NCBI RefSeq assembly: GCF_900607235.1
Contig: NZ_LR027852.1
Coordinates: 1-64,000, forward strand
DNA length: 64,000 bases
Direction of reading: 5' to 3'
From: Olivibacter jilunii
Lineage (GTDB): Bacteria; Bacteroidota; Bacteroidia; Sphingobacteriales; Sphingobacteriaceae
Numbering within the stretch: position 1 is the first letter of the stretch; every line of letters starts with the position of its first letter. Shown here piece by piece: positions 47,692-55,760 of the stretch. Under the pieces are notes generated by a model, which had not been told where the DNA came from, searched no databases, and saw only the letters and a program-made list of their open reading frames with translations. Position numbers and translations under genes: made by a program.

Positions 47692-49584
47692 ATGCTTAAT
47701 CGATGTGTAATCACATTTTTTTTCTTTATCGGTTTATCCGGAATATTGTTTTCGGTTCAGGCACAGCAGCCGGTTTTACTAACAGATAGCCTACATCAAC
47801 ATATGTTCACTTTTGGAGAACTCAAATCCATGGTAGATACGACAGATAGGTTAACATTCGAGCAGATTCAGCAAGCTCGCGGCGCGTCGTTATTTAAGAC
47901 CAATAAAAGCAGCACTCCTCAGAATACAGAAACCAACAAATACTATTGGTATAAATTACGCATTGATCACCGGGATACGCGGGAAAAGTTGTTTGTTCTA
48001 GAATTCTTTGACCAAACTATTGATGAGATTGAAGCTTATATTCCCACCCGGCAAGGTAGATATGCACAGGTCGTATTGGGTGATCAGTTAACGTTTTCTG
48101 CCCGTCCTTTTAGGCACAAAAACTTTGTGATTCCTTTGTATAACGAATTACAGGGAACGCATGACTACTACTTCCGTATTAAATCATCTCAGGTAGCAGA
48201 TGTTATCATCGTCCTTCGTTCCATTGATTATTTTATAGGATATGCCTTGGGAGAGTATTTTAGTTTCGGTATTTTCTACGGCATGATCTTTATATTCTGT
48301 TTTTATAATATGGTTATGTTCTTCGCCGTAAGACAGAGAGCCTATCTTTACTACGTTTGTTACCTGTTATGTGTTGCCCTATTTGAAATGTGTACAGACG
48401 GTATCGCCTATCATTATCTATGGCCCCGTCTGTCAAACTGGAATCAATTTGCTTTTGGGATTGTTCTATGTTTGATGAGCATATTCGCCTTATTATTTAC
48501 ACAGCGTTTATTGCTGCTGCACCGAAAGGCCCCTCGCTTGCATTTTTTTATTTCTGTTGTTATTGCTGCCAGATTATTGTTCTTTGCTTATTGCTTGCTT
48601 TTTGATAAAAGTCTTTTCAATTATAAATTTCTGGAAGCTGTGCCACTTCTTGTCGCGTTTGGTTCAGGAATTTATATATGGACGACAGGCTATCGCCCTG
48701 CTCGATATTTTGTTATTGGCTATGGCTTCCTATTCTTCGGCTATCTCGTAAAGTTTCTCATTATGTTAGGGTTCACTTGGCTGAATTTTGGGATCATTTC
48801 CTATTATATATTAAGCTTCTGTTTTATTATGGAAATGACCTTTTTGTCATTAGCCGTGGGTGACCGCGTGCGTGTGCTTAAATACAGTCGCGATCGCGCG
48901 CAACAGCGCATCATCAAACAAATGAAAATTAATCAGGAGCTTAAAGATAATATTAACCGAGAGCTGGAAGCAAAAGTGACGGAGCGCACCAAAGAACTTA
49001 TGGAAAAGTCCTCGATTATAGAGCAGCAAAACGAAGCGCTTTTTTCAGCCAATCATACCCTTCAGGAGCAGCGTGATGAAATAGCACGGATCAATGCGCT
49101 GCTTAATAAAGATAATGAAGAACTGAAAGAAAATGTAGAACAGGTTACTCGTGCGCGTGTGCTATCAACAGGTGTTCGGTTTGAGGAATTCAGTAAACTC
49201 TATCCCGATCAGGAGAGCTGCCTGAAATTTTTAGCAGAGCTTAAATGGAGGGAAGGTTATGAATGTAAGAAATGTGCAACCACCACTTATTATCCTGGGC
49301 ATTTACCTTATAGCAGGCGTTGTTCGAACTGTGGCTACGAAGAGTCGGCGACGGCCCATACGCTCCTGCAAAATATACGTATACCTATTAACAAATCTTT
49401 CTACCTTATCTATTTAATCTACTCTACCAAAGGAAAAATATCCTCACACAAGTTATCAGATATCTTATCGATTAGGCAGAGCACCTGCTGGGCATACAGT
49501 AAAAAAATTAAGCAGCAAATAGAAGAGAAAAAACTAACTTTTCGGAAATTGGGCGATAAAGGATGGAGTGAATTGCTTTTTTAG
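47692..49584 (+). CDS. 7TM-DISM receptor fused by a coiled coil to an IS1595-type transposase zinc ribbon and HTH
   Basis: 630 aa from the ATG at 47692; a TTG two codons upstream lies in the -7 box. Order: signal peptide (to about 25, SVQAQ); extracellular DISMED2-type beta domain (30-175, YYWYKLRIDHRD, VLEFFDQTIDEIEAYIP, HDYYFRIKSSQ); seven membrane helices (about 183-395); coiled coil (400-485, VTERTKELMEKSSIIEQQNEAL); then, unexpectedly, a domain like the N-terminus of IS1595 transposases: PDQESCLKFLAELKWREGYECKKC, zinc Cys C525, C528, C544, C547, and a following HTH-like part (FYLIYLIYSTKGKISSHKLSDILSIRQSTCWAYSKKI). No DDE nuclease domain follows. In usual DISM proteins the C-terminus is a kinase, cyclase or LuxR domain. 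The likely role is a membrane receptor whose DNA-binding output comes from a transposase. The ligand is unknown. Confidence 0.8.
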   Translation: MLNRCVITFFFFIGLSGILFSVQAQQPVLLTDSLHQHMFTFGELKSMVDTTDRLTFEQIQQARGASLFKTNKSSTPQNTETNKYYWYKLRIDHRDTREKLFVLEFFDQTIDEIEAYIPTRQGRYAQVVLGDQLTFSARPFRHKNFVIPLYNELQGTHDYYFRIKSSQVADVIIVLRSIDYFIGYALGEYFSFGIFYGMIFIFCFYNMVMFFAVRQRAYLYYVCYLLCVALFEMCTDGIAYHYLWPRLSNWNQFAFGIVLCLMSIFALLFTQRLLLLHRKAPRLHFFISVVIAARLLFFAYCLLFDKSLFNYKFLEAVPLLVAFGSGIYIWTTGYRPARYFVIGYGFLFFGYLVKFLIMLGFTWLNFGIISYYILSFCFIMEMTFLSLAVGDRVRVLKYSRDRAQQRIIKQMKINQELKDNINRELEAKVTERTKELMEKSSIIEQQNEALFSANHTLQEQRDEIARINALLNKDNEELKENVEQVTRARVLSTGVRFEEFSKLYPDQESCLKFLAELKWREGYECKKCATTTYYPGHLPYSRRCSNCGYEESATAHTLLQNIRIPINKSFYLIYLIYSTKGKISSHKLSDILSIRQSTCWAYSKKIKQQIEEKKLTFRKLGDKGWSELLF

Positions 49585-49637
49585 CCTTAGTAAAAGTAGA
49601 TTATGGGTGCTAATAAATTAAAAAATCGACGGTGTTA

Positions 49638-49740
49638 AAGCGTATCATAGTGTATTTAGTACACATGCTTCTATTTTAAAGGAAGGTGCTGAAACACAAG
49701 CATTGCGACCCGCTTTATATTCCGGTATTTAAGCGTATCA
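49638..49740. repeat. Direct repeat AAGCGTATCA upstream of second susC
   Basis: AAGCGTATCA occurs at 49638-49647 and again at 49731-49740, 93 bases apart, in the 295-base gap before susC. No gene lies in the gap. The pair could bind a regulator, but there are only two copies. Confidence 0.35.
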
Positions 49741-49786
49741 ATTAATTTGTAATTATCTATATATCAGTCATTTACATATAAAAATA

Positions 49787-49819
49787 TTTGTTTTTTTCCT
49801 GTTTTACCATCTATATTTG
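49787..49819 (+). promoter_or_regulatory. Promoter of the second susC-susD-GH30 operon
   Basis: TTTG (49787-49790), 21 bases, TATATTTG (49812-49819). A good constitutive-type Bacteroidota promoter, unlike the direct-repeat promoters of PUL 1. The leader would be about 55 bases. Confidence 0.7.
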
Positions 49820-49879: not shown

Positions 49880-52828
49880 ATGTCGAGGAAGCTTTTACTA
49901 ATGATTTTCCTATTTTTCATCTGCATCTCAAGTTACGGGCAAGGGACCACTGTGAGAGGCGTGGTGAAGGATATATCCGGAGATGCCCTGCCCGGTGTAT
50001 CTGTTAAGGTGAAAGGAGGGACAGGGGGTACCACTACCGATGGAAATGGGCAATTTACGCTAAAGACACCAGACAATGCGGTATTGATTTTCTCTTATAT
50101 CGGTTATCAGGTAAAGGAAGAAGCCGTACAGGGAAGCAGTACACTTGAAATTACACTATTGCCCTCCAATCAAGAGCTAGATGAAGTAGTAGTTGTAGGT
50201 TATGGCACGCAACGTAAAGGAGATATCACGGGGGCTGTAGGTGTCGTCTCACAAGAAGCTTTTGAGTCTAGACCTAACACCCAATTTGGAAGTATCTTGC
50301 AAGGTAAAACGGCAGGGGTGCAAGTATCCTCCCCCGGCGGTAAACCTAATGCGGGGTTGAACATTCGTATCCGTGGAACGAGTTCCATTACCTCCAGCAG
50401 CGACCCACTGTATGTAGTAGATGGCGTACCGATAGCCGATACACGTTCGATTAATCCCGCTGATATCGAAAGTATGTCTATTTTGAAGGATGCCGCATCG
50501 GCTGCTATTTACGGTGCGCAGGGAGCAAACGGCGTTGTACTTATCACCACAAAGAAAGGCAAGGAGGGGAAGACTCGTGTTGACCTAAATGCCTATGCCG
50601 GGTTTTCTTCCGTATGGCGTAAACTCGATGTGCTAAATGCGAGTCAATATCGGGAGTTGATGACAGCGTTAGGAAGAAACACGGATTGGGATCGATACAC
50701 AGCCAACACGAACTGGCAAGATGAAGTTTTTCAACAAGGGGCATCCCAGAATTATCAATTAGCATTTTCGGGGAAAAGCAATAAAACAACTTATTACTTA
50801 TCCGGCGGTTGGACCAAGCAAAAGGGAGCTGTGAGAAGCGCCGAAATGGATCGTTATAACTTTAAGGTAAATTTGCAACAAGAAGTAAATAGTTGGCTGA
50901 CGTTAGGTACCAACTTAGGTTATACGCGTTACCATGATGTAGATGTGGCCGACAATCAAGCAGTTAATCAAGGAGGGGTCATTATGGGGATTTTATCTAC
51001 ACCTCCCAATATTGGAATTTACAATCCTAACGGTACCTTCACCAGTAACCCCTTTCAGGATTGGGAAAACCCCCTTGCATTTACAGATGGATCTGAACGG
51101 GGTTATAGAAATCAACGGGTCATAGGAAATGCCTATGCAGAAATCACTTTTCTTCCCGGATTAAAGTTCCGCAGTAATTTTGGTATTGATGCAGGAAGTG
51201 GTGTATATGAATATTTCCTGGATCCGATCCGTACAAGCTATGGTCGTGCGCAGGAAGGTATTGGACGTTACAATACCGATCAACGTAATTACTGGATTGC
51301 TGACAACACCTTAACTTATAACAAACAGCTTGAAAAACACAATTTCGGTGCTTTACTGGGGATGGTGGCACAAAAAACCCAGTGGGAAAACAGTGAAACC
51401 GAACGTACCGGTTTTTCCGGTACATCGATTACGACACCCAATGCAGGCTCCGTGATACGGATAGCAAATGTGTCGAAAAGGGAAAAAGCAAATGTTTCCG
51501 TTATCGGGAGAGTTAACTACGATTTTGATGGTAAGTATCTGTTTACCGCAAACTTTCGTGCAGACAATAGCTCCAATTTCGGTTCGGAAAACAAATGGGG
51601 TTACTTTCCATCGTTTTCTGCCGGATGGCGTTTGTCAAAGGAAAATTTCTTAAATGAAGTTTCCTGGTTGGATGATTTAAAGTTGCGCGCAGGTTGGGGA
51701 ATTGTTGGAAATGATAATGTAGGTGAATATGCTTATTGGGGGCGCGTAGCTAGTGATGCTAATTATCCCTTTGGAGGTGTTATATCCCCGGGAACCCGGC
51801 CATCTACTTTACAAAATGATAATTTGAAATGGGAGGAGACGAAGCAAACAAATATTGGCCTTGACATCAGTGTATTTAATGCTCGGTTAAATTTCAGTGC
51901 CGATGCCTATTTAAAGAAGACGAGCGACTTATTACTGAACGTTCCTGTACCTCGAGCAACGGGTTTTGATTATGTCTTACAAAATGCGGGAGCATTGGAA
52001 AATAAGGGTTTAGAATTTCAGGTAAATTCCCGAAACTTAGCGGGGGCGCTCAAATGGGAAACCGATTTAAATATTTCATTGAACCGTAACAAAGTAAGCG
52101 ATTTGGCAGGTACCACTATTTTCGGTGCCAATATATCCGGAAGGGGAGATTTGAGTTATACTACCGTAGGCAACCCCATCGGCATGTTTTATGGTTATGT
52201 GTTCACAGGAGTAGATCCGCAGACGGGAGATGCTCTATATTTAAGAAACGACGGAACAAGCTCCAACAATCCATCCCCGGATGATCGCCGAATTATTGGA
52301 AATCCTAACCCAGATTTCATTTATGGACTAACCAACACCTTTGGATACAAGAACTTTGGATTCAGTATTTTTCTACAGGGAAGCCAAGGCAACGATATTT
52401 ACAATGGTACGCGGGTAGAAACGGAAGGAATGATTGATGCTAAGAACCAAACGACGGCGGTGCTCGATCGTTGGACCAGTCCGGGGCAGCTTACCAATGT
52501 TCCGCGAGCTGTACCGGATAATACCAATAATTCACGGAACTCCACTCGTTTTGTTGAAAATGGTTCGTATCTGCGCGTAAAATCAGTAACCTTAAGCTAC
52601 AATTTGCCGGAAACATTATTGAGTAGGTTGAAACTAAGCAACGTAAAAGTATATGTAACGGGCGAAAACCTATTTACCGTTACAAATTATAAGGGCTTTG
52701 ATCCGGAAGTTAATGCTTTCACTAATACCAATGATGCTACGCAGAACAAAAACACTTTTGTGGGAATCGACTACGGAACGTACCCGCAAACGCGTAACTT
52801 AATCTTTGGCTTGAATGTTTCATTTTAA
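49880..52828 (+). CDS. susC: SusC-type TonB-dependent outer-membrane transporter (PUL 2)
   Basis: 982 aa. Signal peptide to about residue 21 (CISSYGQ), carboxypeptidase-regulatory-like domain (TTVRGVVKDISGDALPGVSVKVKG), TonB-box-like DEVVVVGYGTQRKGDITGAVG, plug (LNIRIRGTSSITSSSDPLYVVDGVP, SAAIYGAQGANGVVLITTKKGK) and a full barrel ending NLIFGLNVSF. It is followed by susD after 11 bases and by a GH30 gene, a minimal PUL. The predicted cargo is a beta-1,6-glucan oligosaccharide, judged only by the GH30 partner. It is clearly distinct from the PUL 1 SusC. Confidence 0.95.
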   Translation: MSRKLLLMIFLFFICISSYGQGTTVRGVVKDISGDALPGVSVKVKGGTGGTTTDGNGQFTLKTPDNAVLIFSYIGYQVKEEAVQGSSTLEITLLPSNQELDEVVVVGYGTQRKGDITGAVGVVSQEAFESRPNTQFGSILQGKTAGVQVSSPGGKPNAGLNIRIRGTSSITSSSDPLYVVDGVPIADTRSINPADIESMSILKDAASAAIYGAQGANGVVLITTKKGKEGKTRVDLNAYAGFSSVWRKLDVLNASQYRELMTALGRNTDWDRYTANTNWQDEVFQQGASQNYQLAFSGKSNKTTYYLSGGWTKQKGAVRSAEMDRYNFKVNLQQEVNSWLTLGTNLGYTRYHDVDVADNQAVNQGGVIMGILSTPPNIGIYNPNGTFTSNPFQDWENPLAFTDGSERGYRNQRVIGNAYAEITFLPGLKFRSNFGIDAGSGVYEYFLDPIRTSYGRAQEGIGRYNTDQRNYWIADNTLTYNKQLEKHNFGALLGMVAQKTQWENSETERTGFSGTSITTPNAGSVIRIANVSKREKANVSVIGRVNYDFDGKYLFTANFRADNSSNFGSENKWGYFPSFSAGWRLSKENFLNEVSWLDDLKLRAGWGIVGNDNVGEYAYWGRVASDANYPFGGVISPGTRPSTLQNDNLKWEETKQTNIGLDISVFNARLNFSADAYLKKTSDLLLNVPVPRATGFDYVLQNAGALENKGLEFQVNSRNLAGALKWETDLNISLNRNKVSDLAGTTIFGANISGRGDLSYTTVGNPIGMFYGYVFTGVDPQTGDALYLRNDGTSSNNPSPDDRRIIGNPNPDFIYGLTNTFGYKNFGFSIFLQGSQGNDIYNGTRVETEGMIDAKNQTTAVLDRWTSPGQLTNVPRAVPDNTNNSRNSTRFVENGSYLRVKSVTLSYNLPETLLSRLKLSNVKVYVTGENLFTVTNYKGFDPEVNAFTNTNDATQNKNTFVGIDYGTYPQTRNLIFGLNVSF

Positions 52829-52839
52829 AGAAGATAGAT

Positions 52840-54318
52840 ATGACACGACATATAATAAGAGGTATGGTCGTTTGCCTTGTTGCGACAACCATTATTTCCT
52901 GTAATAAATTTACCGATTTAACGCCGATTTCTGAGGCCACTAATGAAAATGCTTATACCACAGCAAAGGAAGCAGAAGCAGCATTGACAGGAGCTTATGA
53001 CGCGCTGCAGCAGGAATACTATGTTTGGGACAACATTATATTCAGCGATGTAATATCCGACAATTACTACGCAGGGGGAGATAACCCTGAGATTTTTGCT
53101 GTTGATAAATTACAAATTGTTCCTACAAATGGTCGCTTATTCACCAATTGGGGGCAGCTGTACGGAGGGATCGCCCGGGCAAATACCGTATTGGAAAAGG
53201 TGCCGGGTATTTCCGATCCGCAGTTGGACGAAAGCGGAAGACGGGATCAGATCCTGGGAGAGGCTTATTTTCTTAGAGCCTTTCATTATTTTAATTTAGT
53301 GAAACTTTTCGGTGGCGTGCCCTTGATCTTGGTGCCTGTGGAGGCGAGCAAAACAGAAGAATATATCATTTCCAAATCAACTGAAAGCCAGGTGTATGAT
53401 CAAATTATTGCTGACCTGGAACAAGCAGTGGCTTTGCTGCCGGATACTTTTTCCGATGAAAGCAGTATCAATAAGGCTCGGGCAACAAAAGGTGCCGCAA
53501 ATGCTTTATTGGCGAAAGTGCACGCCCAGAGACCAGATCGCGACTATAACCGCGTGTTAAGCTATTGCGATGCCGTAATAAACAGTCCGGCCAATTATCA
53601 ATTGTTGGCCAATTTTTCGGAATTATTTGATGGGGCGCATTACAATAATGCCGAGTCGATTTTGGAAGTGCAATATGTTGGCGCTCCCGAGGGTAATTTT
53701 GGTCCGCAGATGTTATTGCCACCGTCATTGAGTGGGGATACCTGGCGAAAATTTGTAACTCCGTCCCATGATTTGGTAAATGCTTTCGATAGCGAGGCAG
53801 ATGTGGTACGGAAAAATAGCAGCATTTTATTTGAAAAAGTAAATTGGTTGGATGAGTTCTGGGGAAATCGGGCCGATAGTGAAGTTCCTTTTGCCTATAA
53901 GTGGAAAAATGCGAGCGGTTGGGCCAGTTCCAATAGGCAGTATTTACTTCGTTTAGGGGATATTATTTTGCTGAAAGCAGAAGCTCTAAATGAATTGGGT
54001 AGAACGGCGGAAGCAAGGGAAATTTTAAATCAAATCCGACAGAGAGCAAAGATCAGTCCCTCCGAAGCCAACAGTCAATCAGCTCTACGAGCGGCCATCT
54101 TGAAAGAAAGAAGGCTGGAACTTTGTCAAGAAGCACAACGATGGGATGATTTAAAGCGCGCCGGTTTGGCGGTGGATGTAATGAATGAGCTGAATGAAAT
54201 CGACTTACGCACCAATCAGCCAGTGGATTATAATATGACGACGGAGAAATTGCTGTTGCCAATGCCGCAACAGGAATTAGACCGAAATGGGCAATTGACG
54301 CAAAATCCGGGATACTAA
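52840..54318 (+). CDS. susD: SusD/RagB-type surface glycan-binding lipoprotein (PUL 2)
   Basis: 492 aa. Lipobox in TTIISCNKFTDLTP (Cys at residue 21). SusD pattern: TPISEATNENAYTTAKEAEAALTGAYDALQ, GEAYFLRAFHYFNLVKLFGGVPLI, ARATKGAANALLAKVHAQ in the TPR-like half, then YLLRLGDIILLKAEALNELGR, ILKERRLELCQEAQRWDDLKR and LLLPMPQQELDRNGQLTQNPGY, the usual C-terminal end of the family. It sits 11 bases after its SusC and 2 bases before the GH30 gene, so the three are one operon. Confidence 0.95.
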   Translation: MTRHIIRGMVVCLVATTIISCNKFTDLTPISEATNENAYTTAKEAEAALTGAYDALQQEYYVWDNIIFSDVISDNYYAGGDNPEIFAVDKLQIVPTNGRLFTNWGQLYGGIARANTVLEKVPGISDPQLDESGRRDQILGEAYFLRAFHYFNLVKLFGGVPLILVPVEASKTEEYIISKSTESQVYDQIIADLEQAVALLPDTFSDESSINKARATKGAANALLAKVHAQRPDRDYNRVLSYCDAVINSPANYQLLANFSELFDGAHYNNAESILEVQYVGAPEGNFGPQMLLPPSLSGDTWRKFVTPSHDLVNAFDSEADVVRKNSSILFEKVNWLDEFWGNRADSEVPFAYKWKNASGWASSNRQYLLRLGDIILLKAEALNELGRTAEAREILNQIRQRAKISPSEANSQSALRAAILKERRLELCQEAQRWDDLKRAGLAVDVMNELNEIDLRTNQPVDYNMTTEKLLLPMPQQELDRNGQLTQNPGY

Positions 54319-54320
54319 TT

Positions 54321-55760
54321 ATGGTAGATATGCAGTTTGGGAAACTATATATGGCAATATTGGCCTTGATTATCTTTCTGTCTTGTAAACAAGGTCTTTC
54401 AAAGAAAGAGCGTAGCGAAGCACAAGCAAGCGATACCGGCAGCGAGATTACTTCTTATTTAACCAGAGGAGACCGTTCGGCTTTATTGCAAAAATCTTCG
54501 CTGTCTTTTGGCGGAAGTAAAGCCTCGAAAAATATCGTGGTAAACACGTTGGAAACTTATCAGGAGATTGATGGATTTGGATATACATTGACGGGGGGAA
54601 GTGCCGATCTTATCGCTTCTTTGTCGAACACCAAGCAGGATAGCTTGCTGGAAGAGCTTTTTGCTGATAAGGAGCAATCAATCCGAGTGAACTATCTCCG
54701 TATAAGCATTGGAGCATCTGATTTAAGTGCCACTACATTTACTTACGATGAAATGCCACCGGGTAAAACCGATCCGGACTTGAACTATTTTTCGATCGCC
54801 AAGGAAAAGGAGACGTTGATTCCGGTCCTGAAGAAGATACTGGCCATCAATCCTGATCTTAAAATACTGGGCTCCCCTTGGACGGCTCCTACATGGATGA
54901 AAACAAATGGAGCTTTTAAAGGTGGAAGCCTGAAAAAGGAGTACTACGCAAGTTATGCGCAGTATTTTGTTAAGTATATAAAGGAGATGGAAAAGGAAGG
55001 TATTACAATTGATGCGATTACCATTCAGAACGAACCCTTGCACCCGGGGAACACACCGAGTATGTACATGGAAGCAAAGGATCAAGCCGATTTTATTAAA
55101 ACGGCTTTAGGTCCTGCTTTTGAATCTGCGGGCATAAAAACCAAAATAATCGTATATGATCATAATGCAGATCGGCCCGACTACCCGCTGGAAATTTATG
55201 CAGATAAAGATGCAGCAAAATATGTAGATGGAGCTGCCTTCCATTTGTACGGTGGCAAAATTGAAGCATTGTCGAAAGTGCATGAGGCTTTTCCTGATAA
55301 AAGTCTCTACTTTACCGAACAATGGGTGGGCGGTCCTGGCAATTTTCCGGAAGATTTGAAGTGGCATGTGTCTACGCTTGTTATAGGTGCTACGCGTAAT
55401 TGGAGCAGGAATGTACTTGAATGGAATCTGGCAGCTGATGCCTCTTATAACCCGCATACACCCGACGGTGGTTGTACCAGCTGCCTAGGGGCTTTAACCA
55501 TAGATGACGACCGCGTAAGTCGTAATGTGGCTTATTACATTATAGGTCATGTCTCCAAGTTCGTTCCAACGGGATCCAAGCGTATAGCCTCTACATGGAT
55601 GGATAGTTTACCCAATGTGGCCTTCTTAACTCCTGAGGGAAAAAGGGTGTTGATTGTTGTCAATGTGGAAAGCGAGGAACAAGGCTTCACATTTGAAGAA
55701 TCGGAACGAAATGTACCGGTTGTCCTGCCAGGTGGATCGGTTGCCACCTTCGTTTGGTAA
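54321..55760 (+). CDS. GH30 lipoprotein, probable beta-1,6-glucanase / glucosylceramidase family
   Basis: 479 aa. The signal ends in a lipobox (IIFLSCKQG, Cys at residue 22), so the enzyme is a lipoprotein, probably surface-exposed. GH30 motifs: YQEIDGFGYTLTGGSADLI near the start of the barrel, LRISIGASDLS, ILGSPWTAPTWMK, acid/base E238 in ITIQNEPLH and nucleophile E333 in LYFTEQW; the final beta-sandwich ends with VPVVLPGGSVATFVW. Subfamily GH30_3 contains endo-beta-1,6-glucanases such as the one in the Bacteroides thetaiotaomicron yeast beta-glucan PUL, and that layout (susC-susD-GH30) is the same. Xylanase subfamilies are less likely. I infer use of fungal or other beta-1,6-glucan. Confidence 0.85.
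   Translation: MVDMQFGKLYMAILALIIFLSCKQGLSKKERSEAQASDTGSEITSYLTRGDRSALLQKSSLSFGGSKASKNIVVNTLETYQEIDGFGYTLTGGSADLIASLSNTKQDSLLEELFADKEQSIRVNYLRISIGASDLSATTFTYDEMPPGKTDPDLNYFSIAKEKETLIPVLKKILAINPDLKILGSPWTAPTWMKTNGAFKGGSLKKEYYASYAQYFVKYIKEMEKEGITIDAITIQNEPLHPGNTPSMYMEAKDQADFIKTALGPAFESAGIKTKIIVYDHNADRPDYPLEIYADKDAAKYVDGAAFHLYGGKIEALSKVHEAFPDKSLYFTEQWVGGPGNFPEDLKWHVSTLVIGATRNWSRNVLEWNLAADASYNPHTPDGGCTSCLGALTIDDDRVSRNVAYYIIGHVSKFVPTGSKRIASTWMDSLPNVAFLTPEGKRVLIVVNVESEEQGFTFEESERNVPVVLPGGSVATFVW

Follow-up and report, generated by a model that had tools for sequence, protein, structure and literature searches.

Polysaccharide-utilization loci are regulated by hybrid two-component systems, SusR or ECF/anti-sigma pairs, and receptors of the 7TMR-DISM type usually deliver their signal through a kinase, cyclase, phosphatase or LuxR-type domain. 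In the window, by which is meant the whole 64,000-nucleotide stretch of Olivibacter jilunii DNA analysed here, a 7TMR-DISM receptor fused to the DNA-binding region of an IS1595 transposase is encoded ahead of genes for SusC, SusD and a glycoside hydrolase of family 30 (GH30), which raises the question of what such a receptor does at such a place. The likely answer, for which no binding, footprint or expression data exist, is that it is a membrane-tethered one-component regulator of the polysaccharide-utilization locus, built on a captured transposase DNA-binding domain and with an operator that can be predicted. Its architecture, homology, conservation, heptad phase and operon linkage, as well as the motif and its position, are established computationally. 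DNA binding by the tail, dimerisation, activation versus repression, the sugar ligand and looping between the operator copies are inferred, and nothing about them is experimental.

The receptor and its transposase-derived tail

The receptor gene (47692..49584, + strand) is an uninterrupted open reading frame with a product of 630 aa. The extracytoplasmic sensor 7TMR-DISMED2 (47821..48216, +; residues 44-175; Pfam PF07696, 1.6e-29), whose AlphaFold2 model resembles the fold of the RetS periplasmic domain (Foldseek, 3jyb, E 4.8e-5), is followed by the seven-helix membrane domain 7TMR-DISM_7TM (48253..48867, +; residues 188-392; Pfam PF07695, 2.7e-40), and both domains were present in all 25 homologues tested. 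Next comes a coiled-coil linker (48868..49176, +; residues 393-495) that varies among homologues by seven-residue steps; in the full-length AlphaFold2 model the last membrane helix runs into it as a single helix spanning residues 367-475, residues 464-493 being of low confidence. The tail comprises an IS1595 transposase zinc ribbon (49204..49338, +; residues 505-549; C525, C528, C544 and C547) and a helix-turn-helix (HTH) stretch homologous to the transposase region directly before the DDE domain (49378..49530, +; residues 563-613). No kinase, receiver or AraC HTH domain was matched in the 630-aa protein by Pfam or NCBIfam profiles, nor a winged helix by Pfam. Only one other 7TMR-DISM protein is encoded by the host genome (G000:C3:254211-255323, open frame of 749 aa), in which no match to an IS1595 tail was found.

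The IS1595 origin of the tail is indicated by modest profile matches, with two independent models hitting adjacent stretches in the right order, and is settled by direct comparison. The zinc ribbon was matched by Zn_ribbon_IS1595 (PF12760) with 3e-4 for the full-length protein and 4.5e-5 for the tail alone, at 21-24 bits, slightly below the cut-off of 25.4 bits, and reached 25.9 bits in a whole-genome search; 22 of 25 homologues matched the same profile (best 4.7e-10). The HTH stretch corresponds to positions 3-54 of the 215 in NCBIfam transpos_IS1595 (NF033547; 2.6e-5, tail alone; AlphaFold2 helices), with a score far under the full-length cut-off because the remainder of that profile is absent from the receptor tail. 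Against the N-termini of the closest IS1595-like open reading frames, the tail showed 36-42% identity over 104-116 residues (E down to 4e-35), and the similarity ended directly ahead of the DDE domain; the nearest frame has 296 aa and the catalytic motif DETYVGG. The nuclease itself, DDE_Tnp_IS1595 (PF12762), was not matched in the 630-aa protein, which ends 17 residues past the HTH region. Modelled alone, the tail (pLDDT 86) folds into a zinc ribbon with HTH-like helices after it; no significant match to it was found among solved structures, by fold or by profile, and the weak profile matches there include ribosomal zinc ribbons.

When 151 genomes of the family were searched with the tail, two classes of open reading frame were recovered besides fragments: one of ~620-700 aa matching the whole tail, and one of transposase size, mostly 250-350 aa, matching only its first ~115 residues. 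Fusions are also present in other families of the same class, and a scan of GTDB genomes found 168 loci encoding a tail relative, the best 80 being mostly from Mucilaginibacter, Pedobacter, Chitinophaga and Olivibacter, with Siphonobacter and a few others. Many Bacteroidota of soil carry the fusion. The 137 tail genes gathered comprise 135 full-length DISM fusions and two other forms, one of 1090 aa and one a stand-alone tail of 159 aa; relatives were sampled, not exhaustively collected, and the fusions therefore number at least 135. The models drew on 25 sequences. The four cysteines are invariant in all 70 homologues that were aligned first, an alignment in which no other region of the protein is as well conserved as the tail. 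In a tree with 19 transposase-type sequences, based on a short alignment and with long branches, the tails form one group apart from the transposases (support 94/82), a grouping compatible with a single capture, after which sensors were exchanged or lost. In the host genome the tail family has a single copy, and no further IS1595 zinc ribbon or IS1595-type tail, and no remaining IS1595 element, was found.

Receptor and tail are connected by a phase-locked coiled coil. The spacing from the conserved E381 to C525 is 122, 129, 136, 143 or 150 residues in 132 of 135 proteins; these differences are multiples of seven, the length having changed no fewer than 12 times along the tree, and linkers outside the coiled coil show no such seven-residue stepping. 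The first-pass annotation, made from sequence alone, had claimed a DISM sensor with a coiled coil, an IS1595-like zinc ribbon at the same four cysteines, an HTH-like stretch without DDE nuclease, and a coiled coil that keeps register with the receptor and so is no chance insertion; all of these claims held.

The tail also occurs in other settings. At L133:13109-16381 (-), a 1090-aa protein with a Reg_prop/Y_Y_Y sensor bears the same IS1595-type tail, with copies of the motif described below upstream of its gene, so that here the output module has been transferred to the second main kind of sensor found at polysaccharide loci. A stand-alone tail of 159 aa is encoded at L093:8981-9460 (-), with SusC/SusD genes in the neighbourhood, and another at L371; stand-alone tails of a shorter type are found at L369 (137 aa) and L370 (185 aa).

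Gene neighbourhood and predicted operator

In the window the regulator is followed by its presumed targets, a SusC-type TonB-dependent receptor (49880..52828, +), a SusD-type lipoprotein (52840..54318, +) and GH30 (54321..55760, +; PF02055, 5e-48), and no other regulator was seen in this short susC-susD-GH30 cluster. The linkage is common: the next co-directional gene encodes SusC for 70 of the 137 tail genes, compared with 7 of 974 control genes, the other genes of those loci, at a median regulator-SusC gap of 291 bp. Other loci examined open with GH30, GH16, GH2 or alginate lyase.

The regulator-SusC gap contains a directional motif, approximately TGGTATTNAAGCGTATCA, usually as two direct repeats ~90 bp apart. 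In the window, the distal copy of the predicted operator is CGGTGTTAAAGCGTATCAT (49630..49648, +), and the proximal copy, CGGTATTTAAGCGTATCAA (49723..49741, +), lies 93 bp after it in the same orientation. Among 65 non-redundant gaps the core AAGCGTAT occurs in 52 and AGCGTATC in 47, where 0.8 and 0.1 would be expected by chance; 101 of 102 core instances in SusC gaps are identically oriented, and many loci carry two copies, mostly spaced by 86-94 bp. A matrix was trained on the SusC gaps, which makes its counts there circular in part, and was applied to all loci; those with a non-SusC downstream gene served as a held-out test, in which the motif was detected in 27 of 51. Near genes, 167 of 171 matrix matches are directed toward the downstream gene, and at a score >=18 there were 146 matches in 1.86 Mb and 0 in shuffled sequence. 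An exact 16-base family-wide pattern was overly strict and of no use. Perfect matches to GGTRTTNAAGCGTATCA occur only twice in the 6.7-Mb host genome (49631-49647 and 49724-49740), both between the regulator gene and susC. Moreover, the tandem motif is present in 17 of 41 genomes with the regulator versus 9 of 110 without it (p 7e-6). Additional matches precede other genes of these loci by 100-260 bp and, in two loci (L133 and L231), apparently the regulator's own gene. About one third of regulator loci lack a strong motif immediately downstream, and no Rfam family was found in the regulator-susC intergenic region. The first-pass annotation had also suggested a one-component membrane-bound transcription factor, which is supported by the SusC/SusD linkage and the directional motif in the downstream promoter region, DNA binding being unproven by experiment.

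A candidate promoter of the Bacteroidetes -33/-7 type, TTTG-N21-TATATTTG (49787..49819, +), begins ~46 bp past the proximal operator and is conserved in Olivibacter relatives; such a promoter is recognisable only in Olivibacter and a few others and is less clear elsewhere. With the proximal operator ~46 bp before the -33 box, its position is activator-like. Between operator and promoter lies a second element of unexplained function (49751..49773, +), with the pattern AA-N4-CT-N4-ATCAG-N4-TT over 51 loci, in which CT-N4-ATCAG keeps a fixed distance of 34-44 bases, counted from where the proximal copy starts. The stretch separating the two motif copies additionally holds a palindrome, GCTGATNATCAGC, in several loci of the Pedobacter type.

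Diverged tail families are accompanied by diverged motifs, AAGCGTATA in f49, TTAARCGCAA in f12 and AATCGATTTCGGA in f15, each based on only three to five loci. In the f15 loci (L101-L105), which encode diverged DISM-tail regulators, the main motif is absent; downstream of three of these five genes AATCGATTTCGGA or a near-identical variant recurs, and this sequence could possibly be another operator.

Proposed mechanism and competing explanations

In the proposed mechanism, the periplasmic DISMED2 domain would sense a ligand, probably a carbohydrate freed by the locus's own enzymes, and the signal would pass through the 7TM bundle into a continuous, probably dimeric coiled coil that meets the tail at a constant phase of the helix. 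This tail, a zinc ribbon and HTH without nuclease, would bind TGGTATTNAAGCGTATCA, and paired tails on the operator would recruit polymerase at susC; looping of the DNA between the two operator copies may also occur. Since two direct-repeat copies lie upstream of the susC promoter, activation of susC-susD-GH30 is the most likely outcome. The presence of GH30, and of GH16 in relatives, hints at beta-glucan products as a possible ligand, which is a guess from family membership. A bolder reading, in which a widespread and undescribed class of regulators of Bacteroidota polysaccharide loci reads two direct-repeat operators ~90 bp apart through its transposase-derived tails as a coiled-coil dimer, pulls the promoter to the membrane, loops the intervening DNA and exchanges modules between DISM and Reg_prop/Y_Y_Y sensors, is plausible, but the balance tips slightly against it.

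The best surviving rival is that the same tethered DNA-binding protein is a repressor, blocking the promoter without ligand and releasing it upon ligand binding. Nothing about the anatomy rules this out, and some members (L133, L231) apparently have sites upstream of their own gene. However, wherever the -33 box is recognisable the proximal sites lie ~46 bp ahead of it, as expected of an activator, and it is harder for a tethered repressor to bind away from the membrane region; repression is thus considered unlikely.

Less probable still, indeed very unlikely, is that the protein is merely a signalling receptor of the locus, with the motif bound by a different, unlinked regulator and the tail binding protein or RNA. 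In its favour, the second conserved element indicates that two or more factors may be at work on these promoters, zinc ribbons are able to bind protein or RNA, and the weak structure-profile matches of the tail include ribosomal ones. Against it, motif and regulator occur together even at loci with a target other than SusC, no further regulator is seen in the window's susC-susD-GH30 cluster, the tail derives from a transposase DNA-binding region, and divergence of the motif accompanies divergence of the regulator, in few loci.

A recent chance fusion or a decaying, functionless insertion-sequence remnant is suggested only by the transposon origin of the tail and is all but excluded by 135 intact full-length members across several families with invariant cysteines, a heptad-constrained linker, a single clade and a host genome without any IS1595 element; chance insertion and pseudogene readings are ruled out by this conservation.

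Relation to known systems and origin of the operator

The tethered one-component regulator, as we prefer to read it, shares with 7TMR-DISM receptors (PF07695, PF07696) the DISMED2 sensor, the 7TM domain and a C-terminal intracellular output, and differs in that this output is an IS1595 transposase DNA-binding region. A precedent for a DISM-DNA-binding fusion is provided by proteins with the ChiS-family DNA-binding domain, some of which carry 7TMR-DISM (PMC8092284). That domain is the ChiS cryptic HTH, reported from proteobacterial genomes, for which no zinc ribbon or transposase origin was described (PMC8092284), whereas the tail of the window receptor is accounted for by IS1595 homology. Like other regulators of polysaccharide-utilization loci, it is a membrane sensor encoded beside susC/susD, and the L133 homologue even has their typical Reg_prop/Y_Y_Y sensor; unlike them, it has no kinase, receiver, AraC or sigma domain and joins a 7TM sensor and a transposase-derived tail in one polypeptide. 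Zinc ribbon and HTH stretch, with their order and spacing, are shared with IS1595-family transposases, from which it differs in being a conserved, receptor-fused host gene without DDE nuclease and in a fixed gene neighbourhood. ToxR/CadC-type regulators are membrane-bound one-component regulators with one membrane helix and an N-terminal winged helix; they too combine sensor and DNA-binding domain within one membrane protein, but the window protein has seven helices and a C-terminal zinc ribbon plus HTH.

No prior description of the fusion, its link to polysaccharide loci or the operator was found in the open-access literature searched. What appears to be new is the IS1595-derived output, the polysaccharide-locus link and the operator, while DISM receptors with a DNA-binding output were already known. 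If the proposal is true, a further regulator type for glycan use in Bacteroidota would be added, in which a transposase DNA-binding domain was converted, apparently once, straight into the output of a transmembrane receptor. Prediction of the operator down to single bases makes it directly testable, and a route would be opened to assigning both target genes and the sugars that induce them in many genomes of Pedobacter, Mucilaginibacter and Chitinophaga.

Derivation of the operator from transposon ends was considered but is not claimed. Ends of sister IS1595 elements were derived from repeated copies or 8-bp target duplications, that of the Persicobacter element being CGGTACCTAAGTGCATA. The ends resemble the operator by eye, and a single element alone gave 1/300 in shuffles, but the matrix comparison was not significant (permutation p ~0.15; distant controls overlap). 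No relative of the Persicobacter transposase was found on viral contigs, and phages yielded just two weak tail-like places. The sister elements at L385, L386, L388 and L375-L378 have ends of the form TAGAGGTCAGTA.../GAGGTCGGTA..., with 8-bp target duplications in L385, L386 and L388. Finally, genome G481 (L358-L368) encodes about eleven divergent full-length IS1595-like open reading frames in which another sequence, for example VEIMTCELGI, stands in place of the first catalytic motif, VDETYVGG, and which resemble what might be a separate domestication of the whole transposase.
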